Of a stretch of DNA of 64,000 nt, positions 13,701-29,472 are shown one piece after another. The DNA lies in the NCBI RefSeq assembly GCF_013266755.1, contig NZ_JABRWJ010000001.1, positions 434,001-498,000 on the forward strand, given 5' to 3'. A program made the translations under genes and the position numbers. Position 1 is the stretch's first letter, and the number at the start of each line of letters is the position of its first letter. Under the pieces are notes generated by a model. The model worked only from the letters and a program-made list of their open reading frames with translations, searched no databases and had not been told where the DNA came from. Source of the stretch: Pseudaquabacterium terrae (lineage in GTDB: Bacteria; Pseudomonadota; Gammaproteobacteria; Burkholderiales; Burkholderiaceae_C).

Positions 13701-13886
13701 ACCGAGGCCTACGGCCAGTGGGACGTGACGCTGGGCTACAAGATCACCGACAACCTCACCGTGCAGGCCGAGGTGATCAACCTGACCGACGAGATCCAGC
13801 GCCAGCACGGCCGGCGCAAGGAGCAATTGCTCGGTGTGACGCAGACCGGCCGGCGCTACATGTTCGGGGCACGCTGGCAGTTCTGA
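10794..13886 (+). CDS. TonB-dependent receptor (glycan-type)
   Basis: A 1030-residue outer-membrane receptor. A signal peptide (core ITALAAACGLVCSGAALA) is followed by an unusually long Ala/Pro-rich linker to about residue 80. The TonB box region (MTVVITGIRRSLESAMDLKR) and plug domain come next (FPDTNLAESMQRITGVSIDR, ITVRGVGPDFNLVLLNGR). The rest is a beta-barrel ending in RRYMFGARWQF with the C-terminal aromatic residue needed for assembly. The plug wording is that of the large TonB receptors used for oligosaccharides in Xanthomonas- and Caulobacter-type bacteria. It heads the halogenase/SapC/cupin operon and faces GH16, so it likely imports beta-glucan oligomers. Confidence 0.94.
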   Translation: MNPLPSARSAHGPRPIFRITALAAACGLVCSGAALAQTAAAPPAAAASAAAPAAAASAVPPTLLAQAATVAPVAQAGTLQQPMTVVITGIRRSLESAMDLKRNAQGVVDGIVAEDIGKFPDTNLAESMQRITGVSIDRTIGEGSAITVRGVGPDFNLVLLNGRQMPASSIADTAPSNSRAFDFANLASESVSAIEVYKTSRASSPAGGIGATVNIKTARPLENPGLRASVGIKGVKDDSNDRLPSSLQGSSVTPEISGIFSNTFADGRFGIAISASYQERDLGFNQAAVPNGWRAFKGDENNWGTIPQPGTPGSENITNRPGPNDIYSVPQNLLYSFNGVQRKRTNGQLALQFEPFKGLRATLDHTYSENKIQTKRNELSAWFNFGPTVTKWTDGPAAAPTFYSEIINPPTSDIAMAGALYATRNENKSTGFNLAWKASDKLGFEFDIHQSTATSGADSPYGSNSVLGAASFNRGTTSVDFTRDFPVLSIQGSQLDASKMMVTGSSFRNSYMKSGVDQAQASGKWKIREESELRFGLAATRVENRTAFSNVQRDTWGGATNPGDYPDDLWRADTVRQYFGQISGSGDPALFNQFYVWDFEKVRAIAAQVGGDPSLYLASNAFTTDRRVKENSDSAYLQFDQDWEWGVPMHAALGVRYERTKITSTALVPTATGILWTGNNEFSVQFGQPGFTTLSGDYKYFLPSLDFDAELNDRMKLRASYGESIGRPQWHHIQGGQTLTQLARINGGTGAQGNPGLKPLKAKNFDLSFEYYYAKSSYAALGLFHKTIDNFVGVTTVNQTPFNLHTPAGGALFNEAVQSGCVQGDLTCIRNYIFRTHNGRNGVVRTGTDPNGNEQGTIAGQPGDPIATFAITIPANQRSSKLKGLEFNIQHVFGNSGFGVSANFTKVKSGLEYNNASLGEQFPLVGLSDSANFVGFYEDNKFSVRAAYNWRDKFLANVVDGSGLPNPVYTEAYGQWDVTLGYKITDNLTVQAEVINLTDEIQRQHGRRKEQLLGVTQTGRRYMFGARWQF

Positions 13887-13898
13887 GGAGGGCGAGGG

Positions 13899-15449
13899 AT
13901 GAGCAGCAGCGTCCGCCAGGTGATCATCGTCGGCGGCGGTTCGGCCGGCTGGCTGGTGGCGGGCGTGCTCGCCGCGCGCCACCGCTCGGCCGATGCCGAC
14001 GGCTTGCGCGTGACGCTGCTGGAGTCGCCCGACAAGGCGCCGATCGGCGTCGGCGAGGGCACCTGGCCGACGATGCGCGACACGCTGCGCACCATCGGCG
14101 TCAGCGAATCGGACCTGGTGCGCGAATGCGACGCGACCTTCAAGCAGGGCTCGCGCTTCGACCGCTGGATCGGCGGGCGCGATCCGCAGCGCGACGGTGA
14201 TCGCTACTACCACCCGTTCTCGCTGCCACAGGGCTACGGCGATGCGGACCTGGTCGCCGGCTGGCTGCGGCAGCATGCCGATGTGCCGTTCGCCGACCTG
14301 GTCGGCCCGCAGCCGCACCTGTGCGCGCAGCACCGCGCGCCGAAGCAGGCGCAAACGCCGGAGTACGCGTCGATCGCGAATTACGCCTACCACTTCGATG
14401 CCGGCAAGTTCGGGCCCTTTCTGCGCCGGCACTGCGTCGAGCGGCTCGGCGTGCGGCATGTGCTCGACGAGATGGTCGAGGTGCTGTCGCACGACAACAG
14501 CGACATCGCTGCGCTGAAGACGCGTGACCACGGCGTGCTGGCGGCTGACCTGTTCGTCGACTGCACCGGCATGCCCTCGCTGCTGCTGGGCCGGCACTAC
14601 GGCGTGCCGCTGGTGTCGCAGCGCCATGTGCTGTTCTGCGACACGGCGCTGGCATTGCAGGCGCCGTACTCGCGTGACGACCACCCGATCGCCTCGCAGA
14701 CGATCTCGACCGCGCAAGCGAGCGGCTGGATCTGGGACATCGGGCTGTCGAGCCGGCGCGGCATTGGTCACGTCTACTCGAGCGCCCACACCAGCGACGA
14801 CGCGGCCGCGGACGCGCTGCTGCGCTACATCGAGGCCCATGGCGGCCCGAAGAACGCCGGCACGCCGCGCAAGATCGGCTTCACGCCCGGCCACCGCGAG
14901 CGCTTCTGGCACCGCAACTGCGTCGCGATCGGCCTGTCGGCCGGCTTCATCGAGCCGCTCGAAGCCTCGGCGCTGGCGCTGATCGAGCTCTCGGCCGCGA
15001 TGCTCGCCGACGACCTGCCGGCGACGCGCGAGGCGGTCGACATCTGCGCGCGCCGCTTCAACGAGTGCTTCAGCTACCGCTGGGGCCGCATCATCGAGTT
15101 CCTGAAGCTGCACTACGTGCTGTCGCAGCGCGCCGACAGCGAGTTCTGGCGCGACAACCGGCGCGCGGAATCAATACCGGAGCGGCTGCGCGAGATGCTG
15201 CTGCTGTGGCGTCACCGCAGCCCGTCGCGCTACGACCTGCAGCGCATCGACGAGGTGTTTCCGTCGGCGAGCTGGCAATACGTGCTGTACGGCATGGGCT
15301 TCCGGCCCGAGGCGCTGCCGAGGCACGCGGCCGCGGCCGATGAACATTTCCACGCTGCCGCGGAACTGACGCGCCGCATGCTCGGCGCGCTGCCCGACCA
15401 CCGCACGCTGATCGATCACATCAAGCTGCACGGCCAATCGACGATTTAA
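13899..15449 (+). CDS. tryptophan halogenase family flavoprotein (first copy)
   Basis: A 516-residue flavin-dependent halogenase-family protein. The FAD-binding motif GGGSAGW is at residues 12-18. Lys82 in the TFKQG context aligns with the catalytic lysine of RebH/PrnA (Lys79). GFIEPLEAS (about 349-357) matches the family GFxEPLEST motif. The WxWxIP motif is altered: it reads WIWDIG (277-282), with Gly replacing Pro. GVGEGTWP replaces the usual GVGEATIP. The substrate is unknown; homologues in TonB loci are usually annotated only as halogenases. It starts 12 bases after the receptor stop, behind a GGAGGG ribosome site. Confidence 0.87.
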   Translation: MSSSVRQVIIVGGGSAGWLVAGVLAARHRSADADGLRVTLLESPDKAPIGVGEGTWPTMRDTLRTIGVSESDLVRECDATFKQGSRFDRWIGGRDPQRDGDRYYHPFSLPQGYGDADLVAGWLRQHADVPFADLVGPQPHLCAQHRAPKQAQTPEYASIANYAYHFDAGKFGPFLRRHCVERLGVRHVLDEMVEVLSHDNSDIAALKTRDHGVLAADLFVDCTGMPSLLLGRHYGVPLVSQRHVLFCDTALALQAPYSRDDHPIASQTISTAQASGWIWDIGLSSRRGIGHVYSSAHTSDDAAADALLRYIEAHGGPKNAGTPRKIGFTPGHRERFWHRNCVAIGLSAGFIEPLEASALALIELSAAMLADDLPATREAVDICARRFNECFSYRWGRIIEFLKLHYVLSQRADSEFWRDNRRAESIPERLREMLLLWRHRSPSRYDLQRIDEVFPSASWQYVLYGMGFRPEALPRHAAAADEHFHAAAELTRRMLGALPDHRTLIDHIKLHGQSTI

Positions 15450-15458
15450 GACCAGCCC

Positions 15459-16163
15459 ATGACCCGCCCCGCACTGCTCAACAACATCGACCACCGCGAT
15501 CTGCGTGTGAAGACCGACCGCGCCGAGCACTTCGGCGACGCCGTGATGTCGGCCGTGACCTTCCCGGCCGAGTTCCGCAGCGTGCAGGCGCACTATCCGA
15601 TCGTCTTTCAGAAGACCGCTGACGGCACGGGCTTCCAGCCGCTCGCGCTGTTCGGGTTCGAGGCAGGCGAGAACCTGTTCCTCGGCTCGCAGGGTTGGGA
15701 CGCGCCGTATGTCCCGATGGCGATCGAGCGTGACCCGTTTCTGATCGGCCGCGACGGGGATTCGTTGCTGATGCACGTCGACCTCGACAGCCCGCGGCTG
15801 GGTGTGAACGGTGCCGGCGGTGAAGCGCTGTTCCGGGCCCATGGCGGCACCACCGACTACCTCGACCGCATGAACTCGGTGCTGCTCGCGTTGCACGAAG
15901 GGCTGCAGGCCACGCCGGCCTTCATCACCACGCTGCTCGAGCTGCGGCTGCTGGAATCCTTCGTCTTCGACGTCGAGCTCGACGACGGCTCGACGCACCG
16001 GCTGGCCGGCTTCTACACGATCGACGAGGACCGGCTCGCCGCGCTCGACGGCGCGGTGCTCGAGCGCCTGCAGCGCGCCGGCCAGCTGATGCCGATCTAC
16101 ATGGCGGTGGCGTCGCTGTCGAACTTCCGCACACTGGTCGAGCGCCGCAACCGTCGCTCGTAG
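15459..16163 (+). CDS. SapC family protein
   Basis: A 234-residue protein that matches the SapC family, named after a Campylobacter surface-layer gene cluster. Landmarks are the N-terminal region HRDLRV, FPAEFRSVQAHYPIVF, ALFGFEAGENLF, and WDAPYVPMAIERDPF. The biochemical role is not established to my knowledge. In Proteobacteria it is often placed beside a TonB receptor, halogenase-like proteins and a cupin, exactly as here. It starts 10 bases after the halogenase-like gene. Confidence 0.85.
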   Translation: MTRPALLNNIDHRDLRVKTDRAEHFGDAVMSAVTFPAEFRSVQAHYPIVFQKTADGTGFQPLALFGFEAGENLFLGSQGWDAPYVPMAIERDPFLIGRDGDSLLMHVDLDSPRLGVNGAGGEALFRAHGGTTDYLDRMNSVLLALHEGLQATPAFITTLLELRLLESFVFDVELDDGSTHRLAGFYTIDEDRLAALDGAVLERLQRAGQLMPIYMAVASLSNFRTLVERRNRRS

Positions 16164-16171
16164 CACGCACC

Positions 16172-17194
16172 ATGAGCGTCCACCTGCCGATGCCGACGCC
16201 GGTGCGCGAGATCACCGGCATCGATCCGGCCGCGCTGCCCGACGAGCTGTTGCAGTCCACCGAGCCGGTGGTCGTGCGCGGCCTGGTGCGGCATTGGCCG
16301 GCTGTGCAGGCCGCGCTCGCATCCGGCGCTGCCGTCTCGCAGCTGCTGCGCCGCTGCTGGCGCGACGCCACCGTCAACGCCTGGATCGGTGCGCCGGAGA
16401 TCGAGGGCCGCTTCTTCTACGACGCTCAGTTCAGCGGCTTCAACTTCCATGCCGAGCGGCTGCCGCTGGGCAGCGTGCTCGATGCGCTGGCACGGCACCA
16501 CGCCGACCCGCGGCCGCCATCGCTCTACGTCGGCTCGACGACGATCGACACCTGCCTGCCGGGTTTCCGCGATGACAACGACCTCGGGTTCGGCAAGCTG
16601 CAGCCGTTGATGAGCCTGTGGCTCGGCAATCGCACGCGCATCGCCGCGCACCAGGACCTGCCGGCGAACCTGGCTTGCGTGGTCGCCGGGCGGCGGCGCT
16701 TCACGCTGTTCGAGCCCGGGGAGGTCGGCAACCTGTACATCGGCCCCCTCGATTTCACGCCGGCCGGCCAGCCGGTGAGCCTGGTCGACATCACCGCGCC
16801 GGACCTCGATCGTTTTCCGCGTTATGCCGATGCCGCGCGGCGCGCCCGCGGCGCCGAGCTCGCTCCGGGCGATGCGATCCTCATTCCCAGCCTGTGGTGG
16901 CACCACGTCGAGGCCACCACGCCCTTCAACGCGCTGGTGAACTACTGGTGGCGCGACACGCCCGAGCACATGGACGCGCCGGTCGCCGCGCTGCTGCACA
17001 CCATCCTGTGCGTGCGCGAGCTGCCGCCGGAGCAGCGCCGCGCCTGGCAGCAGCTGTTCGAGCATTACGTCTTCGCGGCCGATGCATCGACCGCTGCGCA
17101 TATCCCGGAGCATGCACGCGGCGTGCTGAAGCCGCTGGATGCCGAAGCCTCGCGCCGCCTGCGCGCGCAACTGCTGCAGAAGCTCAACCGCTGA
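16172..17194 (+). CDS. cupin-like (JmjC/Cupin_8) protein, putative Fe(II)/2-oxoglutarate oxygenase
   Basis: A 340-residue protein with a JmjC-type jelly roll. Metal ligands are suggested by His160 and Asp162 (AAHQDLP, an HxD pair) and a distal His in LWWHHVEA (244-245). The fold is further indicated by RRRFTLFEP and the closing NYWWRDTP. Family members hydroxylate proteins or small molecules; the substrate is not known here. It lies between SapC and the second halogenase-like gene with short spacings (8 and 10 bases), so it is part of the receptor operon. Confidence 0.85.
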   Translation: MSVHLPMPTPVREITGIDPAALPDELLQSTEPVVVRGLVRHWPAVQAALASGAAVSQLLRRCWRDATVNAWIGAPEIEGRFFYDAQFSGFNFHAERLPLGSVLDALARHHADPRPPSLYVGSTTIDTCLPGFRDDNDLGFGKLQPLMSLWLGNRTRIAAHQDLPANLACVVAGRRRFTLFEPGEVGNLYIGPLDFTPAGQPVSLVDITAPDLDRFPRYADAARRARGAELAPGDAILIPSLWWHHVEATTPFNALVNYWWRDTPEHMDAPVAALLHTILCVRELPPEQRRAWQQLFEHYVFAADASTAAHIPEHARGVLKPLDAEASRRLRAQLLQKLNR

Positions 17195-17204
17195 GGTGAT
17201 CACG

Positions 17205-18752
17205 ATGCAACCGACCCCGCCCACCCCGACCCGCCGCATCGTGATCGCCGGCGGCGGCACCGCCGGCTGGATGGTGGCGGCCTGCCTGGCGAAGACGCTG
17301 GGCAGGAAGCTCGACATCACGCTGGTCGAGTCCGACGAGATCGGCACCGTCGGCGTCGGCGAGGCGACGATCCCGACGCTGCTGCTGTTCCACGAGCTGC
17401 TCGGCATCAACGAGCAGGAGTTCATGGCCGCGACGCTGGCCACCTTCAAGCTCGGCATCGGCTTCGAGCACTGGCGCGCGCCCGGCCACCAGTACATCCA
17501 TTCCTTCGGCCTGACCGGCCGCGACCACTGGACCGCCGGCTTCCAGCATTTCTGGCTGAAGGGCCGCGAGCGTGGCCTGGCCTCGGCCGAGTACGGCGAC
17601 TACTGCACCGAGCATCGCGCCGCGCGCGAGAACCGCTTCGCGCACCTGCCGAAGGCCGGCATGAACTACGCGTTCCACCTCGACGCGACGCGGTATGCGC
17701 GCTTCCTGCGCAGCTTCAGCGAGCCGCTGGGCGTCAAGCGTGTCGAGGGCAAGATCGTCGACGTGCTGAAGCACGCCGACTCGGGCCACATCCGCGCACT
17801 GAAGCTCGATCGCGGCGCCGAGATCGCGGGCGACCTCTTCATCGACTGCACCGGCTTCCGGGCGCTCTTGATCGGCACGACGATGGGCGTGCGCTACGAG
17901 GACTGGTCGCACTGGCTGCCCTGCGACAGCGCGGTCGCCGCGCAGACGGCCTCGGTGGGCGAAGCGGTGCCGTACACGCGCTCGATCGCCCACGAATGCG
18001 GCTGGCAATGGCGCATTCCGCTGCAGCACCGGGTCGGCAACGGCATGGTCTACGCAAGCCGCTACCTCGACGACGACGCGGCCAAGGCGACACTGCTGCA
18101 ACGCGTGCAGGGCGAGGTGCTGGCGCCGCCGCGGGTGCTGAAGTTCCGCCCCGGCCAGCGCGAGGAAGCCTGGCGCGGCAACTGCGTCGCGATCGGCCTG
18201 GCCGGCGGTTTCATCGAGCCGCTGGAGTCGACCAGCATCCACCTGATCCAGCGCGGCGTGATCCGGCTGCTGCAGCTGTTCCCCTCGGACGGCATCTGCG
18301 CGGCCGACGTCGACGAATACAACCGCCAGACGCGCTGGGAGATGAAGCACATCCGCGACTTCATCGTGCTGCACTACCACGTGACCCAGCGCGACGACAC
18401 GCCGTTCTGGCGCGACTGCCGCAGCATGGACATTCCGGCGTCGCTGCGCCAGCGCATCGAGCTGTTCCAGGAGAGCGGCCGCGTCTTTCGCGCGCCGAAC
18501 GAGCTGTTCGCCGAGAACTCGTGGATCCAGGTGATGCTGGGGCAGGGCATCGTGCCGCGGCGGCCGAATGCAACGGCCGACATGATGGGCGACGAGGAGC
18601 TGCGGCATTTCCTCGAGGGCATTCGCATGGGCGTCGAGCGCACAGTAATGCCACTGCCGCGGCACGAGGCCTATGTGCGCGAGTATTGCGGCGCGGTGGC
18701 GCAGCCGGCCGGCGTGCCGGCGGCTGCGCCGGCGCTGGCCGTGCCGAGGTGA
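17205..18752 (+). CDS. tryptophan halogenase family flavoprotein (second copy)
   Basis: A 515-residue paralogue of the protein at 13899 but closer to the classic family. FAD motif GGGTAGWM (17-24), GVGEATIP (50-57), Lys82 in TFKLG (aligned with catalytic Lys79 of RebH), an intact WQWRIP (267-272) and GFIEPLESTS are all present. The complete motif set makes a functional flavin enzyme likely, but the substrate is unknown and need not be tryptophan. No flavin reductase gene is nearby. I chose the ATG at 17205, which follows the cupin stop by 10 bases. The stop overlaps the deacetylase start. Confidence 0.9.
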   Translation: MQPTPPTPTRRIVIAGGGTAGWMVAACLAKTLGRKLDITLVESDEIGTVGVGEATIPTLLLFHELLGINEQEFMAATLATFKLGIGFEHWRAPGHQYIHSFGLTGRDHWTAGFQHFWLKGRERGLASAEYGDYCTEHRAARENRFAHLPKAGMNYAFHLDATRYARFLRSFSEPLGVKRVEGKIVDVLKHADSGHIRALKLDRGAEIAGDLFIDCTGFRALLIGTTMGVRYEDWSHWLPCDSAVAAQTASVGEAVPYTRSIAHECGWQWRIPLQHRVGNGMVYASRYLDDDAAKATLLQRVQGEVLAPPRVLKFRPGQREEAWRGNCVAIGLAGGFIEPLESTSIHLIQRGVIRLLQLFPSDGICAADVDEYNRQTRWEMKHIRDFIVLHYHVTQRDDTPFWRDCRSMDIPASLRQRIELFQESGRVFRAPNELFAENSWIQVMLGQGIVPRRPNATADMMGDEELRHFLEGIRMGVERTVMPLPRHEAYVREYCGAVAQPAGVPAAAPALAVPR

Positions 18753-20748: not shown

Positions 20749-20967
20749 GACGCCATTCACTTCGCTGAAAACCGCGTTGCGGCCGAAGGCCTATTTCCCG
20801 CCGAGGGCTTCCCGTAGCTTAGCGGCGGGTACTCCCGAATCCGAATGGATCCCGACCCGCCGGCTGCTCATCGGTTTCGGCCCGCGGTGGCCGTCATCGC
20901 CCACCAGCGGGTGTGCCTCCCTCCCTCGATCGGTGGATGCGTGGCGGGTCGAGCTCTCCTCTGCCGC

Positions 20968-20996
20968 TTGATCAGTATCCGCAGATTACATACATT
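20968..20996 (+). promoter_or_regulatory. putative sigma70-type promoter of the trypsin-CHAT-SIR2-FRG cluster
   Basis: TTGATC (20968-20973) and TACATT (20991-20996) are separated by exactly 17 bases, each matching the consensus at four of six positions. They lie in a locally AT-richer patch of the 297-base gap before the protease gene. Apart from this and the hairpin just downstream, I see nothing in that gap. Confidence 0.42.
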
Positions 20997-21003
20997 GCCA
21001 GCG

Positions 21004-21018
21004 GCCACTTTCAGTGGC
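21004..21018 (+). repeat. leader hairpin before the protease gene
   Basis: GCCACT-TTC-AGTGGC forms a six-base stem with a three-base loop and can extend by three pairs including G-U. It would sit at the very 5' end of a transcript from the predicted promoter, 13 bases before the strong ribosome site AAGGAGGAGA (21031-21040). It could stabilise the mRNA or be an operator palindrome. Confidence 0.4.
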
Positions 21019-21045
21019 TGTCCCCGCCACAAGGAGGAGAACCGG

Positions 21046-22077
21046 ATGGCTACCTCGCGCACACGAATTCCCGCAGCCGTTGGCGTCAGGGGTGATCCGA
21101 TTCCCGCGGCCGACTCCTCTGGTCCTGGCCTCGCAGCCGCGATCGCCGCGGCCGAACGCGAAGCCGGTGCCGACGACGCGCTGTTCCTGCATCAACTCGA
21201 GCAGCGCCTGCGCGCCGGGCCCGGCAATCGCAGCGCAGCGCCGCCGACAGCCCGCAGTAGGACGATCCGCATCGTTCCGGCGACGCCGCCCAACCGCAGC
21301 TTCGAGGTCCTCAAGGATCCGCGCTACCTGGCCAACATGCGCCAGCTCATGCACCGCACCGGCGGCGGCGAACGTGTCGTCGGCGGCCAGCCGGTGAAGG
21401 CCGGTGAATTCCTCGACTGCGTAGCCGTCGGCTCGGACACCGACTGGGCCTGTACCGGCACGCTGATCGCGCCCAACGTCGTGCTCACCGCCGGCCACTG
21501 CGCCGAATTCGCAACCCGCGTGTACTTCGGCAACGACGTGTCCCGTCCCGGCAAGGTGGTCAAGGTCAAGCAGCGCGTGCGCCACCCCAAGTACCATCAA
21601 GGCGCGACCAACGATCTGCTGGTATTGCTGCTGCAGCAGAACGTCACCACCGTGAAGCCGCGCGCGCTGGCCACCAAGGCGCTGGCCGACAAGGCCACCG
21701 ACGGCCGCGTGGTCGGCTTTGGCACCGTCAACGCCGGCGGCGATCTCGGCTACGGCATCAAGCGCTTCGTCGACGTGCCTGTCGTCTCCAACGCCTGCCG
21801 CGGCAAGCTCGACGGCAAGCAGGACCGCTTCAGCTACGGGTGCGACCCTGGCCAGGAACTGGTCGCCGGCCGGCCGATGCTCGAGCGTGACAGTTGCCGC
21901 GGCGACAGCGGCGGCCCCTTCTACGTGCTGAATGCGCAGAGCGCCTGGGTGCTCGCCGGGGCCACCTCACGCGCCACCAGCAGCGCAATGAGCACCTGCG
22001 GCGACGGCGGCATCTACGAGCGCGTCGACCGCTTCCGCGACTGGATTGCCTCGCTCGCCGGCGTGGTTCTGCCTTGA
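21046..22077 (+). CDS. trypsin-like serine protease with N-terminal propeptide, cytosolic
   Basis: A 343-residue S1-family protease. The catalytic triad is His151 (TAGHC), Asp190 (NDLLVLL) and Ser288 (GDSGGP). Asp282 aligns with trypsin Asp189, predicting cleavage after Arg or Lys. Residues 110-114 read R-VVGG, the junction at which trypsinogen-type zymogens are activated, so the first 110 residues look like a propeptide. No signal peptide is seen, which is unusual for this family in Proteobacteria and suggests an intracellular target. The ATG is fixed by AAGGAGGAGA six bases upstream. The stop overlaps the CHAT start (TTGA), so the two proteases are translationally coupled. Confidence 0.9.
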   Translation: MATSRTRIPAAVGVRGDPIPAADSSGPGLAAAIAAAEREAGADDALFLHQLEQRLRAGPGNRSAAPPTARSRTIRIVPATPPNRSFEVLKDPRYLANMRQLMHRTGGGERVVGGQPVKAGEFLDCVAVGSDTDWACTGTLIAPNVVLTAGHCAEFATRVYFGNDVSRPGKVVKVKQRVRHPKYHQGATNDLLVLLLQQNVTTVKPRALATKALADKATDGRVVGFGTVNAGGDLGYGIKRFVDVPVVSNACRGKLDGKQDRFSYGCDPGQELVAGRPMLERDSCRGDSGGPFYVLNAQSAWVLAGATSRATSSAMSTCGDGGIYERVDRFRDWIASLAGVVLP

Positions 22078-24032
22078 GCCGCCGCGCCAAGGCGCCGACG
22101 CAGGCCCCAGCCGCCCCGGCCACCACGCCGCTGCAGGTTAGCGTCTGCTGGGGCGACATGACGCGCTCCGCCGGCGATGTGCTGCTGGTGGGCCACTACG
22201 CTGGCGTGATGCCCCAGCGTGCCGAACTGGCGGTGGACGACTGGGTCTCTGCCACGGCCGGCGGCGGTCCCGAAGTGCCGCGCTTGATCACCGAGATGAC
22301 CCGTCGCGGCGTGCTGCGCGGTGACCTCGGCGAGGTGCAATTCTTCCCAGGCCCGGACGGCCGCCTCGCCGCGGTGGCCGGCATGGGGCAGCCGGGCACC
22401 TTCGGGCCATCACAGCAGCGCCGACTGGCGACCGCCGTGGCTCAGGTGATCGGCATGCTGCCACAGACCCGCAGCGTGACCAGTGTGGTCATCGGCTCCG
22501 GCGAAGGCAACTTGCCGCTCGAACTAGCCGCGCGGGATTTCGTCGATGCATTTGCCGGCGCGCTGCAGGCCGACCCGCGGCTGAAGGTGCGTTCGCTGGC
22601 CATCGCCGAACGCCAGCTCGAACGGGCCTTGCAGGTCCAACGCGCACTCGCCGCGGCCCCAACGCGCCCGGCGGCCACACGGCAATGGACGCTGGCCGAT
22701 GGGCTGCAGGAGGTCGACGGCGGCGGCGTGTCGGCCGACTTCGGCTGCGCGATGTTGCTCGCAGCGCTGGGACTTCCCGATGATGGCAAACCGGGCCTGC
22801 TGGAGTCGGCGCTGCAGCGCTTGCCCGAGTCGCTGCGCGATGCGGTGCGTCAACGCATCCGCGGCGCGCAGGCGAACGGCCAGCCGCCCGAAGCAGCGCT
22901 GCGCCACGCCGCGCTGCAACTGCGTCTCGCGCCGCCGGAGGAGCCTGTCACCCGCCTGGTGCCGACACGAATGGCTTTCACCCATAGAGGCGACGACCTG
23001 CACGCCACCGCGATCACGGAGCGAACCACGGTCACCGAGCGGGTGCTCGAGCGCCGAGTGCAGCTCGCTCTGCGCGCCGCCGAAAAGCTCGCCGAGGCCA
23101 GTACCAGCAGCGCGTCCCAGCTCGGCCAGCGGATACGGCGGCTGCTGGTGCACGGTGACCTGCAATCCCTGCTCCAAGCGCTGGGCGACCTGGTGCTCGA
23201 ACTCGACGAGGTGACCGCCTCGATGCCCTGGGAGATGCTGGCTCTGGAGGGCAACGCCGAGCCGCTGGCCGTGCGTCGCCCGTTGGCTCGGCAGTTGCGC
23301 ACGCGGTACAGCCCGCGCCCCGGCGAGTCCGTCCGCGGCGGGCTGCCGCGCGTGCTGATCATCGGCGACCCCGCCTCCGGCACAGGCGCGCTGCCATCGG
23401 CGCGTGTCGAGGCCAAGGAGCTCGGCACGTGGTTCAAAGAGCACGAGGTGGACTGCACTGTGCTCATCGGTCCGCCCGAGGCGGGCACTGGTGCCGGCAC
23501 GGAAGCAGGCTACGAGCCGGCCGAGTACGTCGAGGTCGTGACCTTGCTGCAATCCGGCCAGTACGACATCGTGCATTTCTGCGGCCATGCCGACTACGAG
23601 CAGGGGAGCGCCGAACGCTGCGGCTGGCTGTTCGATGAAAACCACCGGCTCACCGGCAGCGACCTGCAAGGCATGGCCAGGCCGCCGCGCCTGGTGTTTG
23701 CCAACGCCTGCCTGACCTCGCAGATCAAGCGTGGCAACGTCGCCGCTGGCCTGGCCGACGAGTTCTTCCACGTCGGCGTGCAGGACTTCATCGGTACTGC
23801 CTGGGAGGTGCCTTCGGAACCGGCCCGCACGCTGGCCATGACTTTCTATCGCGAGCTGCTGCCGGCCGCCAACAGACTCGGAGCGCCCATCGGCGAGGCG
23901 CTGAGGGAGGCACGTGCCGCGATCTGGCAGCCGGAACAGACAGCGCAGGTACACGCCGAAGGCGCGCCGCGGGCGGCTTGGGCTGCGTACCAGCATTACG
24001 GCGACCCGGCTTCACGATTCGTGACGCGCTGA
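22074..24032 (+). CDS. CHAT domain (caspase-like) protease
   Basis: A 652-residue protein from the TTG overlapping the protease stop. The C-terminal third (about 425-650) is a CHAT domain with catalytic His505 in HFCGHADY and Cys546 in FANACLTS, the caspase-type dyad. SMPWEMLAL precedes it, as in other CHAT proteins. The N-terminal region (about 20-190, for example DVLLVGHYAGV, EVQFFPGPDGRLAAVAGMGQ) resembles the macro-like N-terminal domain of M17 aminopeptidases; this is my reading, not a search result. The middle (200-400) is helical and unassigned. CHAT proteases act in several bacterial immune systems by cutting a partner effector. Confidence 0.87.
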   Translation: MSRRAKAPTQAPAAPATTPLQVSVCWGDMTRSAGDVLLVGHYAGVMPQRAELAVDDWVSATAGGGPEVPRLITEMTRRGVLRGDLGEVQFFPGPDGRLAAVAGMGQPGTFGPSQQRRLATAVAQVIGMLPQTRSVTSVVIGSGEGNLPLELAARDFVDAFAGALQADPRLKVRSLAIAERQLERALQVQRALAAAPTRPAATRQWTLADGLQEVDGGGVSADFGCAMLLAALGLPDDGKPGLLESALQRLPESLRDAVRQRIRGAQANGQPPEAALRHAALQLRLAPPEEPVTRLVPTRMAFTHRGDDLHATAITERTTVTERVLERRVQLALRAAEKLAEASTSSASQLGQRIRRLLVHGDLQSLLQALGDLVLELDEVTASMPWEMLALEGNAEPLAVRRPLARQLRTRYSPRPGESVRGGLPRVLIIGDPASGTGALPSARVEAKELGTWFKEHEVDCTVLIGPPEAGTGAGTEAGYEPAEYVEVVTLLQSGQYDIVHFCGHADYEQGSAERCGWLFDENHRLTGSDLQGMARPPRLVFANACLTSQIKRGNVAAGLADEFFHVGVQDFIGTAWEVPSEPARTLAMTFYRELLPAANRLGAPIGEALREARAAIWQPEQTAQVHAEGAPRAAWAAYQHYGDPASRFVTR

Positions 24033-24087
24033 CGCTCACCGTCGCTGCCCCGATGTCCATTCACCACCACCCAGGGGGTCTCTGCCG

Positions 24088-24888
24088 ATGATCATTACCG
24101 ACGACACCACACGCCGCTTCATCAGCAGGTCTCGCCTGCCGAAAGTCCCGCGCAGCGCCGACAGGGGTTTGCGCGGGGCGATCGAAGACCTACCGCCGCT
24201 CGAGCTCAAGGCCAAGGACGCGCAGGCCCTGGTGGTCGGCAGCGGCCTCGTCGTCGCCGCCGAGAAGGTGCCAGTCCAGGTGCGCGAAGACGTCGTCAAC
24301 TGCACGCTGTTCGCGCAGCTCGTGGCCACTGCTGAGGTCGGCGATCCGACCAAGGTCAACGAGTGGTACGGCGCGTATTTCCGCGCCCTCACCAACCTCG
24401 GCTGGGCGCAGAGCGACCAGCAATTCCAGAAGTACCGGTTCGACACCAGCGGCGCCGTCGCGCACCAGGCAGTGCTGCCGGTGGTCACCGCGCTGCTCGG
24501 TCCTCAGGCCGCCGCGCTGGCCGTTCTCAAGGCCGCCTTCGATGGCCTGAAGGAGATGAGCGAGAACGCGCCGTGGATTACGCTCTTCGAGCGCTACTCG
24601 CGGGTCGAGCAGTCGGCGCACTTCCAGGTCGCTACCGCCGAGGTCGGTGAAGGCGGCTTGGTGCAGGTGGCCCTGGTGGCCTTCGACCTGCAGGCACACA
24701 GCGAACTGATCCAGGTACTGTTCTTTAAGTTCAACAAGGCCAAGACGCTGCTCAACTACTCGGCGGGCCGCGCCACGATCTACGAGGCGGCGCTGGCCAG
24801 CCAGCGCGAGGCCCTGGCGCAACGCCTGGCGGCCTACCGCAAGGCCTATGTCGGGCAGGTCAGACTGCCGCCGCTGCCGGCGCCGTGA
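24088..24888 (+). CDS. protein of unknown family in the protease-SIR2 cluster
   Basis: A 266-residue protein that I do not recognise. The N-terminus is polar with several Arg/Lys sites (for example SRSRLPKVPRS, residues 13-23). A mostly helical central part follows, with AVLPVVTALLGPQAAALAVLKAAF near 127-150 as its most hydrophobic stretch. The C-terminal part alternates beta-like strands (GLVQVALVAFDLQ, ELIQVLFFKF) and ends in a helix. There is no signal peptide and no catalytic motif. It lies 55 bases after CHAT and seven bases before the SIR2 gene. Its position next to two proteases, one predicted to cut after Arg/Lys, makes it a candidate proteolytically activated effector. Confidence 0.82.
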   Translation: MIITDDTTRRFISRSRLPKVPRSADRGLRGAIEDLPPLELKAKDAQALVVGSGLVVAAEKVPVQVREDVVNCTLFAQLVATAEVGDPTKVNEWYGAYFRALTNLGWAQSDQQFQKYRFDTSGAVAHQAVLPVVTALLGPQAAALAVLKAAFDGLKEMSENAPWITLFERYSRVEQSAHFQVATAEVGEGGLVQVALVAFDLQAHSELIQVLFFKFNKAKTLLNYSAGRATIYEAALASQREALAQRLAAYRKAYVGQVRLPPLPAP

Positions 24889-24895
24889 GGGCGAC

Positions 24896-26815
24896 ATGAG
24901 AGGCGGCAAGCGTCCACGTAGCGCGGCCAAGCCTGCGGCGCGTACCACGCGCGCGGCCCCGGCCGTCGTCGACGAGACCTGGCTTGCACAGTGCAACGAG
25001 CAAGCCCTGGCGCTACTCGAGCGGCAGGGCCGCACCGGGCTGGGTCTGGTGCCGTTCGTCGGGGCAGGGCTGTCCACCGCCTTCGGCTTCCAGGACTGGC
25101 GCAGCCTGCTGCTCGGCGCCGCCCCGCCGCATCTGCGCGATGCGATGCGCAGCGCGCTCGACGCCGGCGACTACGAAGGGGCCGCGCAGAGCCTGCTCGA
25201 TGATTTGGGGGCCGACGGCTTCCAGAACATGGTGGCCGTAGCCGCCGGCGACCGCCGCTTCGATGAGGCTGCACTGCGCGCAGGCACGCTGTCGCTGCTG
25301 CCACTGCTTGCCGGCGGCCCAGTCGTCACGACAAACTTCGACCGCCTGCTCGAGCATGCCTTCGCGGCCAACGGGCGCGCTTTCGAGTCGGTGGTTTCCG
25401 GGCCCAGGCCGGACCTGATCGTCGATGCGCTGCACGGTAACCGCCGCGTGCTGATCAAGCTGCACGGCGATTGGCAGGATCGCGTCGGCCGCACGTTCGC
25501 GCGCTCCGACTATGCCGCCAACTACGGCAGCGACGGCTCAGCCGACAAGCGCGTTCTGCTGGAGAGCGCGCAATGCCTGTTGTTCGCCAGCCGGCCGATG
25601 CTGTTCATCGGCGCCAGCCTGGGTGTCGATCGCACCGTGGACATGCTGCTGAAAGTGCAGGAAGACTACGCCGGCGTACGCCATTTCGCGGTGATGAGCG
25701 CGCCATCCACGGCGAGGGCGTTTCGCGCCAAGGAGCGGCAATTGCGTTCTCTAGGCGTGCTGCCGCTGTGGTACCGCGCCAGCAGCGGTGCCGAGCATGT
25801 GCGTGAAGTTGAAGCGCTGGTGCAGCGCATAGTCGCGCGCATCTCGGTGCGCACGCTACGCGGCCCGCGGGCTCGGGCGACCGTCCGGGCACGAGTAATC
25901 GCACCACCGCCTGGCATGTCCGGCATGCCGCCCGAGCTGAACGGCCAACTGGAGCGGGTGGTCAACCTCATTCGCGCCGGTCAACTCAGCCTCTTCCTCG
26001 GCTCGGCGGTGCATTGGCCGACCAAGCTGATGGCCAAGCACTTCTATGATGAGTTGGCCCGCCGCTTCGACTGTGAGGCCCTGGCCAGCGAGCGCAGTGC
26101 GGTGGCGCAGCACATCGCCGATCGCCATGGTCGCGAGGCGCTCAACGGCGAAATCGACAAGCTGCTCGATCGTTCGGACCTGCAGCCGCGTGAAGCCCAT
26201 CAGCTGCTGGCAGCCTGGCCGCAGCTTTATGGCGGGGAGGGCCAGCCACCGCCGTGGCCGACCGTATTCACGACCAACTACGACGATGTTCTCGAACGAC
26301 ACCTCGCCGGGGCCGACGTTCCGTTCCACCTGCTGACGTACCACAACGAGGGTGAGTGGCGTGGCCTGTTCAGCCACCTCGACGTCGACGGCTCGCTGCG
26401 CATTGTCGAGAGGCCGCGCAATCTTCTGCGGCTGGCGCCCGCCATGGTGGTGGTCAAGCTCAACGGCGGTCAGAACCAGGGCCTGGGCATTAGCCGCAGC
26501 TACGTGACGACAATGATGGACTACATCGACCTGGCCGCGCGCATCCCGGAGGGGTTGCCGGCGGTGCTGCGGCGCACGCTGGAGGCGCATCCGCTGCTTT
26601 TCCTCGGCCATGGGCTGGTCGAGTCGGACGTCGAGTCGGTGCTCCGCTTCGCCCACCAGGACCACCGGGGGATGCGGTCCTGGGCGGTGGTAAAGGGCAA
26701 GCCGCCGGAGAGAGTGGCCTACTGGTCGCAATGCGGCGTGCAGATCGTCGACCAGCCGGTCAACCTCTACACCGCCGAGTTGCATCGTCGGCTCGCCAGG
26801 GCCGCCAGGCCATAG
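24896..26815 (+). CDS. tandem SIR2 domain protein (active-looking plus degenerate domain)
   Basis: A 639-residue protein with two SIR2-type Rossmann domains. Domain 1 (about 45-320) has GAGLS (56-60), TTNFDRLLE (145-153, Asn147), KLHGDW (188-193, catalytic His190) and GASLGVD (239-245). Domain 2 (about 350-635) has LGSA at 368-371 in place of GAG, an intact TTNYDDVLE (459-467), and KLNGG (521-525), where Asn523 replaces the catalytic His. It closes with FLGHGLVESDVE. SIR2 proteins of this kind hydrolyse NAD+ during phage defence (ThsA, DSR types). Domain 1 could be the NADase and domain 2 a sensor or dimerisation module; this is inference. I chose the ATG at 24896. Confidence 0.87.
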   Translation: MRGGKRPRSAAKPAARTTRAAPAVVDETWLAQCNEQALALLERQGRTGLGLVPFVGAGLSTAFGFQDWRSLLLGAAPPHLRDAMRSALDAGDYEGAAQSLLDDLGADGFQNMVAVAAGDRRFDEAALRAGTLSLLPLLAGGPVVTTNFDRLLEHAFAANGRAFESVVSGPRPDLIVDALHGNRRVLIKLHGDWQDRVGRTFARSDYAANYGSDGSADKRVLLESAQCLLFASRPMLFIGASLGVDRTVDMLLKVQEDYAGVRHFAVMSAPSTARAFRAKERQLRSLGVLPLWYRASSGAEHVREVEALVQRIVARISVRTLRGPRARATVRARVIAPPPGMSGMPPELNGQLERVVNLIRAGQLSLFLGSAVHWPTKLMAKHFYDELARRFDCEALASERSAVAQHIADRHGREALNGEIDKLLDRSDLQPREAHQLLAAWPQLYGGEGQPPPWPTVFTTNYDDVLERHLAGADVPFHLLTYHNEGEWRGLFSHLDVDGSLRIVERPRNLLRLAPAMVVVKLNGGQNQGLGISRSYVTTMMDYIDLAARIPEGLPAVLRRTLEAHPLLFLGHGLVESDVESVLRFAHQDHRGMRSWAVVKGKPPERVAYWSQCGVQIVDQPVNLYTAELHRRLARAARP

Positions 26816-26851
26816 GCACAGGCATCGGGGCGTCCACGGAGGAGTTCTGGG

Positions 26852-28222
26852 ATGAGCAATTCAAGCCACGAAGAGTCTGCCCAGAAGGCTGTCGAGTACT
26901 TTCTTCGCACCGCGTTTGGGGAACAACGGCAAAGTCTGTGGAACGCGCGGACGCTCGAGGCACTGGGCTACATAAGCCAAGCGGCCCACGTTGAGCCTCT
27001 CGTCGGCGGTCGACGAAATGCCAACGGCCATCCGATGGATTGGGTCGCCCCAAGCTTTTGGCATGCCGCAGCGGCATTGCTGGAAGCATGGGCCAGGACA
27101 CGCCTACGTGAAGAAAGCTTGACGCCGGAGTCAGCCAACCAATACTTTGGTGCGCATTGGGTGTTCCGTGGGCAGGCGAACCCCTGGCCGATCCTTCCAA
27201 GCGCGCTGCGGACGCAGTTGTATAGGCAGCACAACCACAATTTCGTGGAAGCTCTGCGGAGCTACGTGGCTACCCACTTGCCTGAAGAAGAGATTGCCGG
27301 CCTGAGCGAATACGCCAATCTTTCGCACTTCAGCAATGCGGCTGCGATGGGGCAACACTATGGACTTCCTACGCATTGGGTCGACTTCACCTTCCACCCG
27401 CTCGTTGCGCTGCACTTCGCAAGTCTGGACGCCAACGCCGCTGCCCCGGCAAACCACCCATTGCCGGGTCACGGCGTCATCTATCGAACCCGTTTCGGGA
27501 AGCTCCAGCGGATGCAGGATGTCGGGCTCATCGATCTGCATCTGGAGTTGCTGCCACCGTGGGTGATGAAGCGCTGGTATCAGCAGTCCGGTTTTCACGT
27601 TTCTTGTCCTGACGAGTCAGAAGATCAGTGGAAGAGCTTCACTGATGAGTGTGAAGCCATCCATTTCCCCAGGCACTACCCCAAGCTGTCGCAGAAAGCC
27701 CATGTCCTCGACGAGGCGTCGATCGCTGGCGCTCTCGCTCCGCCCGATGATCCGTTCTATGCCGTGCAGACCAAGATCGTGCTGCATCGCTGGTATCCGA
27801 GCGAACCATTCATCGAAGATGCGATTGCGGCTATCGTGGGCTGCTGCGCGAAGGACCCGCGCGGGTTCAATGCAGACAGGGCACTGCACGCAGCGCGGAA
27901 GGCCAAGCGAGTTGGCTCCCCGTGGATGAATTCAATGATCGGAGTGCCCCGGACCCGTATTGGCATGATCATGGCCGATCCGATGCGCATCGCGATGCAC
28001 TATCTGTTCGAGGCATCGAGCGTGCACACGCCAGTAGGGGTTCATCTTGATCCCGCTATCGCAATCGCGTTCGGATCCCAGAATCGCCGGCTGTTCGACA
28101 CGCTGGCCGACCTCTCCCAGAGCGTTGATCTGTTCGGGCTTCCACTGATGTGTGACTTGGTGGCCGAAGCAGCCGATCGCTGGAATGACTGGGTAGACCG
28201 GCGATCGACCACGAACTGCTGA
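26852..28222 (+). CDS. FRG domain-containing protein
   Basis: A 456-residue protein with the FRG signature: WVFRGQ (103-108) and PSALR, then GQHYGLPTHWVDFT (167-180) and HPLVALHFA (182-190). FRG domains occur in phage-defence and toxin contexts and have been linked to ADP-ribosyltransferase-like folds, but their chemistry is poorly defined. The C-terminal half (260-456) is unassigned and includes a helical region with CCAKDPRGFNADRALHAARKAKR. Two 60-base stretches I counted have 57% and 60% GC, against 80% in one stretch of the CHAT gene, which suggests a different origin. It has a strong ribosome site (GGAGGAG, about eight bases upstream) and follows SIR2 by 36 bases. Confidence 0.83.
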   Translation: MSNSSHEESAQKAVEYFLRTAFGEQRQSLWNARTLEALGYISQAAHVEPLVGGRRNANGHPMDWVAPSFWHAAAALLEAWARTRLREESLTPESANQYFGAHWVFRGQANPWPILPSALRTQLYRQHNHNFVEALRSYVATHLPEEEIAGLSEYANLSHFSNAAAMGQHYGLPTHWVDFTFHPLVALHFASLDANAAAPANHPLPGHGVIYRTRFGKLQRMQDVGLIDLHLELLPPWVMKRWYQQSGFHVSCPDESEDQWKSFTDECEAIHFPRHYPKLSQKAHVLDEASIAGALAPPDDPFYAVQTKIVLHRWYPSEPFIEDAIAAIVGCCAKDPRGFNADRALHAARKAKRVGSPWMNSMIGVPRTRIGMIMADPMRIAMHYLFEASSVHTPVGVHLDPAIAIAFGSQNRRLFDTLADLSQSVDLFGLPLMCDLVAEAADRWNDWVDRRSTTNC

Positions 28223-28246
28223 TCGCGACGTCGTCGTCTTCCTGGT

Positions 28247-28261
28247 CCAGGCGTCGCCTGG
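28247..28261. repeat. short inverted repeat after the FRG gene
   Basis: CCAGGCG-T-CGCCTGG lies 25 bases after the FRG stop. It could fold as a five-base stem with a five-base loop. No T-run follows, so it is at most a weak terminator. The remainder of the gap to 28375 shows nothing recognisable. Confidence 0.28.
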
Positions 28262-28374
28262 CTCAGGCGATCCGCCGTCCAGTAAACCCATCGTGGTCGA
28301 TACGGCATTGCACGATTCACAACAATCGGCGCAGCGGTTAGCCTGACGACGCGTCCTGCACCGGGAGTGGAGCG

Positions 28375-29472
28375 ATGAAGCGAGTTGCCATGGGCCTGCT
28401 GGCCCTCGTGTTGGCCCTGGCCGCGTACCTGAGCTTGTGGCCCGTGCCGGTGGAGCCGGTGGCCTGGAATGCGCCCGCGGCGCCCGGCTACACCGGCGTG
28501 CACGCCGTCAACAGCCGGCTGGCCGGGCTGAACCTCATCGCGCTGGGTGACGAGGCCGGCCCCGAACACGTCGTGCTGGGGCGCGACGGCAAGCTCTACG
28601 CGGCCGTGGCCAGCGGCCGCGTGCTGCGCATGAACCCCGACGGGACCGGTCAGGAAGTCTTCGCCACCACCGGCGGACGCGTGCTGGGCTTTGCCTTCGA
28701 CGCCGCGGGCCGACTGATCGCCGCCGACGCGGTGAAGGGGCTGCTCGCGATCGGCACCGACCGCCAGGTCACGGTGCTCACCGACAAGGTGGACGGCGAC
28801 GCCATCCGTTATGCCGACGCGGTGGTCGTGGCGCGCAACGGCAAGATCTATTTCAGCGATGCGTCGACCCGCTTTGCGCCGGCTTCATGGGGCGGCACCT
28901 ACGAAGCGGCGGTACTGGACATCATCGAGCAGCGCTCGACCGGCCGCATCCTGGAATACGACCCGGCCACCCGCGCCACGCGCGTGGTGGTGCGCGGCCT
29001 GAGCTTCGGCAACGGCGTGGCGCTGAGCGAGGACGAGCAGACCCTGTTCGTCGCCGAGACCGGCAAGTACCGCGTCTGGAAAGTGGCCGTGGCCGCGGAC
29101 CGGCTCGACGTGGCGCAAGGCTCGCCGCAAGCCACTGTCCTGCTCGACAACCTGCCCGGTTTCCCCGACAACCTGATGCGCGGCCAGGACGGGCGCATCT
29201 GGCTCGGCTTCTCGGGACCGCGCAGCCCGAACGTGGACAGCCTGGCCGGCAAGCCCTTCATGCGCTCACTCACGCTGCGCCTGCCGCGCGCGATGTGGCC
29301 GGTCCCGAAGCCCTATGGCCATGTCATCGCCTTCACCGAAGACGGGCGTGTGGTCGCCGACCTTCAGGACGCCACCGGCACCTATCCGGAGACCACGGGG
29401 GTGACCGAAACGGCTGATCGCTTGTACGTGCAGAACCTGCACTTGAAGGTGCTGGGGTGGAAGGCGCGGTGA
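28375..29472 (+). CDS. SMP-30/strictosidine synthase-like beta-propeller protein
   Basis: A 365-residue protein with an N-terminal signal or anchor (MGLLALVLALAAYLSLW). A six-bladed beta-propeller of the SMP-30/gluconolactonase/strictosidine synthase-like type follows. Landmarks are GPEHVVLGRDGKLYAA, GLAFD-like GFAFDAAGRLIAAD, NGKIYFSDAS, and GLSFGNGVALSEDEQTLFVAET, the last being the most conserved blade. It ends with LYVQNLHLKVLGW. Family members are lactonases or bind small molecules; the substrate is unknown. It is separated from the FRG gene by 152 bases and probably not part of that cluster. Confidence 0.82.
   Translation: MKRVAMGLLALVLALAAYLSLWPVPVEPVAWNAPAAPGYTGVHAVNSRLAGLNLIALGDEAGPEHVVLGRDGKLYAAVASGRVLRMNPDGTGQEVFATTGGRVLGFAFDAAGRLIAADAVKGLLAIGTDRQVTVLTDKVDGDAIRYADAVVVARNGKIYFSDASTRFAPASWGGTYEAAVLDIIEQRSTGRILEYDPATRATRVVVRGLSFGNGVALSEDEQTLFVAETGKYRVWKVAVAADRLDVAQGSPQATVLLDNLPGFPDNLMRGQDGRIWLGFSGPRSPNVDSLAGKPFMRSLTLRLPRAMWPVPKPYGHVIAFTEDGRVVADLQDATGTYPETTGVTETADRLYVQNLHLKVLGWKAR

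Follow-up and report, generated by a model that had tools for sequence, protein, structure and literature searches.

A cluster of five genes from Pseudaquabacterium terrae (host genome of 8.04 Mb) was analyzed in a 64,000-nt window of contig NZ_JABRWJ010000001.1, to which all coordinates refer unless a locus is named. The main finding is a broad protein family with a predicted cytolysin fold that is linked with proteases, and the window carries an unusual variant of it with two proteases. All five genes lie on the + strand and encode, in order, an S1A trypsin-like protease, a CHAT (caspase-like) protease, the cytolysin-fold protein (gene 3), a tandem SIR2-like protein and an FRG-domain protein. 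Its gene content suggests a putative role in cell suicide or self-defence. A previous sequence-only reading had described the same five co-directional genes with spacings of -4, 55, 7 and 36 bases, and had recognized the trypsin, CHAT, tandem SIR2 and FRG domains around one unknown protein. The coordinates and the Pfam domains agree with that description, and gene 3 indeed has no significant match in Pfam, NCBIfam or PADLOC.

The product of gene 3 (24088..24888) was assigned from its predicted structure. The model matched the Cyt/volvatoxin A2/Evf structural class well above unrelated folds and over most of the domain, and the same class was found again with the predicted model of another family member. 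Hence, gene 3 very probably has a cytolysin fold, a class in which Cyt, Evf and volvatoxin are handled together (PMC5390079). The core covers about residues 41-251, with the alignment to the Cyt1Aa protoxin beginning at residue 41, and 190 residues, starting from residue 8, could be aligned with Evf (2w3y). Identity to Cyt1Aa, Cyt2Ba and volvatoxin A2 is 8-13%. By sequence, gene 3 does not belong to the Cyt family, its sole Pfam match being an unrelated family at E 0.27. Cyt families were likewise absent among the 25 of 26 weak Pfam families listed for 45 members of the gene 3 family, the best match of which (1.3e-4, in one member) was to an unlikely family. The family gave nothing significant against the sequences of solved structures, and a viral structure library gave no match at E 0.001 or better. 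A gasdermin had been the first guess from the protease context, and none was present among the Pfam and structural matches listed for gene 3.

In front of this core, residues 1-46 (about 45 residues) form an Arg/Lys-rich N-terminal extension with 10 Lys/Arg, located where Cyt1Aa has its propeptide. When Lys/Arg were counted at the N-terminus of 30 members, this was the highest share, the others ranging from 0.02 to 0.14 per residue. The Cyt1Aa protoxin is described as losing some 30-37 residues at the N-terminus and 5-7 at the C-terminus upon activation, for which proteinase K or trypsin was used, and its N-terminal propeptide as covering part of the lipid-binding face (PMC7052140).

The distribution of the family was determined in samples of genomes, plasmids, phages and viral contigs, in which absence is no proof. 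Gene 3 matched 3 of 100 relatives and 3 of 274 genomes of the class, the own genome being included in both. A scan of GTDB contigs gave 35 loci of the family (labeled L0xx, with genes called by a simple custom script), and at 12 of these the first copy is adjoined by another intact one. Besides, members were found in 41 plasmid records, 38 of them from Sinorhizobium, and in one IMG/VR contig (L054). The phyla represented are Pseudomonadota, Acidobacteria, Bacteroidota, Actinomycetota, Bacillota, Cyanobacteriota and Verrucomicrobiota.

Apart from the window, 36 non-redundant loci entered a tally of neighbors, which covered 161 nearest genes and, as comparison, 123 farther genes. This tally omits a frame-broken copy (L013), near-copies (L034, L037, L048 and L049), genes of more than 1300 residues and genes cut at contig ends. 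Seven Trypsin_2 proteins were present among the nearest genes (L009, L014, L019, L026, L039, L050 and L051), and 0.25 would be expected from the background of 61 matches in 37.9 Mb of six host genomes; the Poisson probability is 1e-8 under independence of the loci, an assumption that fails for some of them. For the farther genes, Trypsin_2 did not appear among the 25 families listed (down to 2 members). Caspase-type partners occur at three more loci. The one at L045 matches PF00656 (5.7e-22), and at L016 and L030 it is a protein of 172-173 residues with His and Cys motifs, taken as caspase-like, which at L016 has no Pfam match and, as a 172-residue query, gave no useful PDB sequence match. A trypsin-like or caspase-type protease, among the families listed, thus adjoins the family at 10 of the 36 loci. 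Left uncounted were the trypsin-like genes of L048 and L049, a subtilase at L016 (in the farther set), two Peptidase_C92 proteins and a sub-threshold matrixin-like protein at L036. The partners found elsewhere match Trypsin_2 best, and the trypsin of the window matches PF00089.

Other kinds of partners were also observed: EAD1 on the L026 trypsin and, below cut-off, on the L039 trypsin; EAD11 at L039; nSTAND1 at L024 and L027; TIR at L014 (two genes) and L015 (scanned on L007, an equally long contig); Amidase_3/M15/GDSL at L050; and Endonuclease_NS and Metallophos fused to the trypsin at L014. A tree of 34 members was built with one copy per locus, without L013, L034, L037, L044, L046-L049 and second copies. 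In this tree the window clusters with L014, L050 and L015 (100/100), trypsin and caspase-type partners occur in further clades too, and partner labels are not significantly clustered. TIR proteins often cleave nicotinamide adenine dinucleotide (NAD+), and TIR genes stand near the family gene in two of these three closest relatives (L014 and L015). At the Bradyrhizobium locus L014 (4590-13880), the family member and the two TIR genes are accompanied by a pesticin/lysozyme-like gene, below threshold, and by a Trypsin_2/Endonuclease_NS/Metallophos protein of 1229 residues. On a Sinorhizobium plasmid (L050, 7821-13862), the family member forms a compact trio with a GDSL/Amidase_3/M15 hydrolase and a Trypsin_2 protein, with gaps of ~40 bases; the same trio is present on the Sinorhizobium plasmids L048 and L049. 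At L008 (4916-9449; a contig as long as that of L030) and L016 (2684-7447), the caspase-like protein of 172-173 residues follows apparent divergent tandem paralogues of the family, and L016 also carries the subtilase.

In the window, both proteases carry intact catalytic residues. The trypsin (gene 1, 21046..22077, PF00089 at 1.9e-28) has the triad H151, D190 and S288. Its pro-region of ~110 residues is followed at position 111 by VVGG, directly behind Arg110, and VVGG preceded by Arg is the zymogen activation pattern of trypsins. Residue D282 occupies what we take to be the position of chymotrypsin D189, where Arg/Lys-cutting trypsins carry Asp; therefore, specificity for Arg/Lys is predicted. 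The CHAT protease (gene 2, 22074..24032, PF12770 at 1.9e-34) contains H505 and C546. Its N-terminal part has no assigned fold and includes a sub-threshold stretch of M17_N, presumably a macro-like domain, at E 0.054, below the Pfam cut-off. Searches of plasmids and of 273 further genomes from the class gave no relative of this part, and a search of solved-structure sequences gave nothing significant. The CHAT search gave matches in 2 of 120 relatives (own included) and in 9 plasmid records, those outside the own genome spanning one domain only.

The best explanation of these data, which we hold at just short of an even chance, is that genes 1-3 encode a protease-gated membrane effector and that SIR2 and FRG constitute a second, NAD+-directed or sensor, arm. 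Gene 3 would be made as a precursor with the cytolysin fold. A trigger would then activate the CHAT protease and/or the trypsin zymogen, the latter as a self-activating enzyme, and gene 3 would be cut within its Arg/Lys-rich extension, like Cyt protoxins. The freed core may assemble on the membrane of its own cell, permeabilize it, possibly as a pore, and halt an infected or stressed cell; a role in phage defence is likewise putative. The own membrane is favored as target because none of the five proteins has a signal-peptide-like hydrophobic stretch in a simple scan. The SIR2-like protein, with its complete first domain, and the FRG protein may act as the second arm. The sequence-only reading had proposed a cascade of two proteases onto an effector: proteases acting on an effector are supported by the predicted fold of gene 3 and by the protease partners at 10 of 36 loci, and the five genes as one recurrent unit are not. 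More generally, and with less confidence than doubt, we propose that bacteria possess a second class of membrane-damaging effectors gated by proteases, which is independent of gasdermins and built on the cytolysin fold. Members of this family, spread over at least seven phyla, would be precursors freed by a trypsin-like or caspase-like protease recruited at the locus, and the variant of the window would couple two proteases with an NAD+-directed SIR2/FRG arm.

Several observations weigh against a protease-gated effector. Uncut Cyt1Aa monomer also gives membrane-bound oligomers, and a disulphide, not the propeptide, is reported to block assembly (PMC7052140). Since uncut Cyt1Aa can assemble on membranes, removal of the propeptide need not be the switch, and our confidence was limited for this reason. 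Two proteases for one substrate are redundant. The Foldseek TM-scores to cytolysin-fold entries were ~0.2-0.55 with a large root-mean-square deviation, and because they are low the fold was not considered more than very probable; furthermore, both structure models draw on the same sequences. A shared fold is no proof of pore formation, and Evf, with the same fold, is described as a palmitate-bearing virulence factor (PMC5390079). The greater use of Arg in high-GC genomes may account for some of the basic extension; other members in high-GC DNA stay below the share of gene 3 all the same (L009, 0.14; L030, 0.04; L017, 0.09). At 26 of the 36 loci, no trypsin-like or caspase-type gene lies nearby among the 25 families listed per tally, and the near-versus-far comparison alone is modest (Fisher p 0.018 with no far match, 0.073 with one), related loci not being independent. 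Finally, phage records contained no relative of gene 3, and no defence-island, phage or mobile context was seen around the window.

The two genes of the putative second arm are tandem SIR2 (gene 4, 24896..26815, SIR2_2 PF13289 at 4.1e-31 in two stretches) and FRG (gene 5, 26852..28222, FRG PF08867 at 3.8e-14, residues 102-195). The first SIR2 copy holds N147 and H190, both residues of the SIR2 motif, and is thus a predicted SIR2-type NADase. With this, the catalytic residues previously called intact (Ser288 of the trypsin, Cys546 of CHAT and His190 of the first SIR2) were all correct. The second copy keeps Asn461 and is probably inactive, because Asn523 (KLNGG) replaces the His at the position matching His190. 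SIR2 matches were obtained in 3 of 250 genomes (own included) and in 3 plasmid records, the outside matches covering one SIR2 domain only. FRG matched the own genome alone at 1e-15 among 250 genomes of the order, and no plasmid. Besides, gene 5 matches the PADLOC candidate family PDC-S15 at 1e-15.

Whether these five genes act as one system was addressed through co-occurrence. The sequence-only reading had suggested a five-part system and had named as an argument against it the case that the homologues are not found together elsewhere. No second copy of the set was found by the gene 3, CHAT, SIR2 or FRG searches, so that this case applies to the five-part unit within the samples searched. Among the 25 families that each tally lists, CHAT, SIR2_2 and FRG do not occur next to the family at other loci. 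Searches with single window proteins (phmmer) also found no SIR2, FRG or CHAT beside the family, a weak result as the same method missed trypsins found by other seeds and profiles. A genome-wide search of the CHAT family gave matches in 17 of 34 host genomes and none in 17 of 34, with presence counted per genome. Five genes as one recurrent system are therefore not supported, and a composite, in which genes 1-3 and genes 4-5 are neighboring and functionally separate conflict modules, is a serious alternative, possible though in our estimate doubtful. It is favored by the lower GC content at third codon positions (GC3) of the FRG gene (0.69 vs. 0.83-0.88 for genes 1-4) and by the company of the family elsewhere, i.e., TIR, nuclease, cell-wall hydrolase or STAND genes. 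However, the same-direction gaps of 7 and 36 bases suggest a single transcript, and the TIR gene upstream of the family gene in the same clade (L014 and L015) makes such an enzyme nearby a repeated theme.

Gene 3 could also be an exported toxin aimed at other cells or hosts, the proteases serving to mature or release it. The named proteins with this fold and a solved structure are toxins or virulence factors, and some loci lie near Rhs-like or toxin-like genes identified by eye (L024 and L044) or near cell-wall hydrolases (L014 and L050). However, export is unlikely given the missing signal-peptide-like stretches, a window gene list in which no secretion gene was seen by eye, and STAND, EAD and TIR partners that point to cell-autonomous conflict systems such as those presented in PMC7159879.

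According to a further alternative, an ADP-ribose-type product of SIR2 would be sensed by the N-terminal part of CHAT and start the protease cascade, like TIR-activated caspase-like immunity, a TIR-signalled caspase-like system being cited in PMC12799240. The weak M17_N stretch is compatible with such sensing, and the TIR genes of the two close relatives could stand in for SIR2. However, this relay is improbable: that stretch lies under the Pfam cut-off and the N-terminus had no relative for modeling, the L015 genome has no CHAT match, and both CHAT matches of the L014 genome lie beyond the extent of the L014 contig. Lastly, the proteases might stand beside the family by chance or for general proteolysis, with gene 3 a lipid-binding protein that has no role in killing. 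This would fit the loci where no such protease was found and a fold that reveals no function. It is quite unlikely in view of seven Trypsin_2 neighbors vs. 0.25 expected, in separate clades, and of three further loci with another class of protease.

The protease-gated effector was also compared with known systems. In bacterial gasdermins, a protease frees a membrane-damaging precursor, and these proteins with partner proteases (cited in PMC12799240) would be alike in logic if our reading is right. Cyt1Aa, Cyt2Ba and volvatoxin A2 differ in being crystal or secreted toxins, whereas gene 3 is encoded with proteases and has no Pfam match to them. Evf of Erwinia shares the fold of gene 3 and differs as a palmitate-bearing, Drosophila-related virulence factor; we know of no protease partner for it. 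Among tested mechanisms, the closest in logic is the pairing of a pro-nuclease with a protease in Hachiman, AVAST and Canu (PMC12799240). In the nuclease-protease pairs of Hachiman, AVAST, Lamassu, DRT and Canu, a trypsin or caspase partner likewise stands beside a proenzyme and is swapped among systems; there the proenzyme is a metallo-beta-lactamase (MBL)-type nuclease, whereas the window has a cytolysin-fold protein and none of the five proteins matches an MBL. Of the predicted systems, NucA-trypsin System 3 (PMC7159879) comes closest, and its trypsin, EAD1-trypsin, lysozyme-like and NucA parts are found again next to the family at L014, L026 and L039. The window lacks NucA (no Endonuclease_NS match in the five proteins) and EAD1, whereas NucA and trypsin occur together at L014, possibly a locus of the System 3 type that includes a cytolysin-fold protein. 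The System 3 text of PMC7159879 names no cytolysin-fold part, and its main text contains none of the terms Cyt-like, Cyt toxin, Evf, endotoxin and cytolysin; in the searched text of PMC8195603, no mention of pore-forming or cytolysin was found. No study of a protease- or defence-linked cytolysin-fold family was among the top literature matches, in a search whose scope excluded most subscription journals.

In PADLOC, gene 4 matches the SIR2 part of LmuA of Lamassu (5.3e-14) and of ThsA of Thoeris (5e-15; profile 25-230 of 478), the trypsin weakly matches LmuA variants (0.023), and gene 2 weakly matches the BovA CHAT (5.6e-4). None of the five proteins matched LmuB, ThsB, TIR or SLOG, nor any other PADLOC core gene. 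Protease-activated killing is a theme common to animal and bacterial immunity, so far through gasdermins and, recently, pro-nucleases, and further protease-activated classes are called possible by the authors of PMC12799240. If the effector reading is true, a new effector class on the Cyt/volvatoxin fold would provide a marker for defence-gene searches, no such name being given to gene 3 by Pfam, NCBIfam or PADLOC. It would also connect cell-autonomous conflict systems with a classic toxin fold, in that a widespread cell-suicide part would have the fold of insecticidal Cyt proteins and fungal volvatoxins.

Regarding expression, a good match to a ribosome site (aaggaggag) lies 5' of gene 1. The promoter-like pair reported before the cluster was not recovered: a consensus scan of 20760-28500 gave one site only, at 27119 inside the FRG gene, and 0.8 is expected by chance. 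The start codon of gene 2, and hence its -4 overlap with gene 1, is uncertain, the candidates being TTG at 22074 (overlapping, no clear ribosome site) and ATG at 22158 (80-base gap). GC3 in all five genes, lowest in FRG, is below the flanking mean of 0.92 (n = 11 genes), and for this reason the cluster, FRG above all, may have been acquired. An empty site was not observed: the downstream gene (28375-29472) recurs in two further genomes of this genus (3 of 21 including the own), where the upstream DNA is different and the upstream flank of the window is absent. The flanking genes, of which translations were read by eye, are of other kinds than the cluster. They include, at 10794-18752, a TonB-receptor-like gene with halogenase-like and cupin-like genes behind it, an arrangement common in nutrient-use clusters.

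Elsewhere, additional contexts of the family were noted. In Paenibacillus (L020, L025 and L031), tandem members lie near a response regulator and a long sensor-like gene, a different context in which no protease was found. In Pseudomonas chlororaphis (L044, 3-6968), three family members lie downstream of a very long open frame that looks toxin-like by eye. In Muricauda (L021, 8860-9525), an endonuclease/exonuclease/phosphatase-type gene lies downstream of the family member, and in a cyanobacterium (L035, 301-747), a peptidase inhibitor I66 gene is located ~1.2 kb from a tandem family pair.

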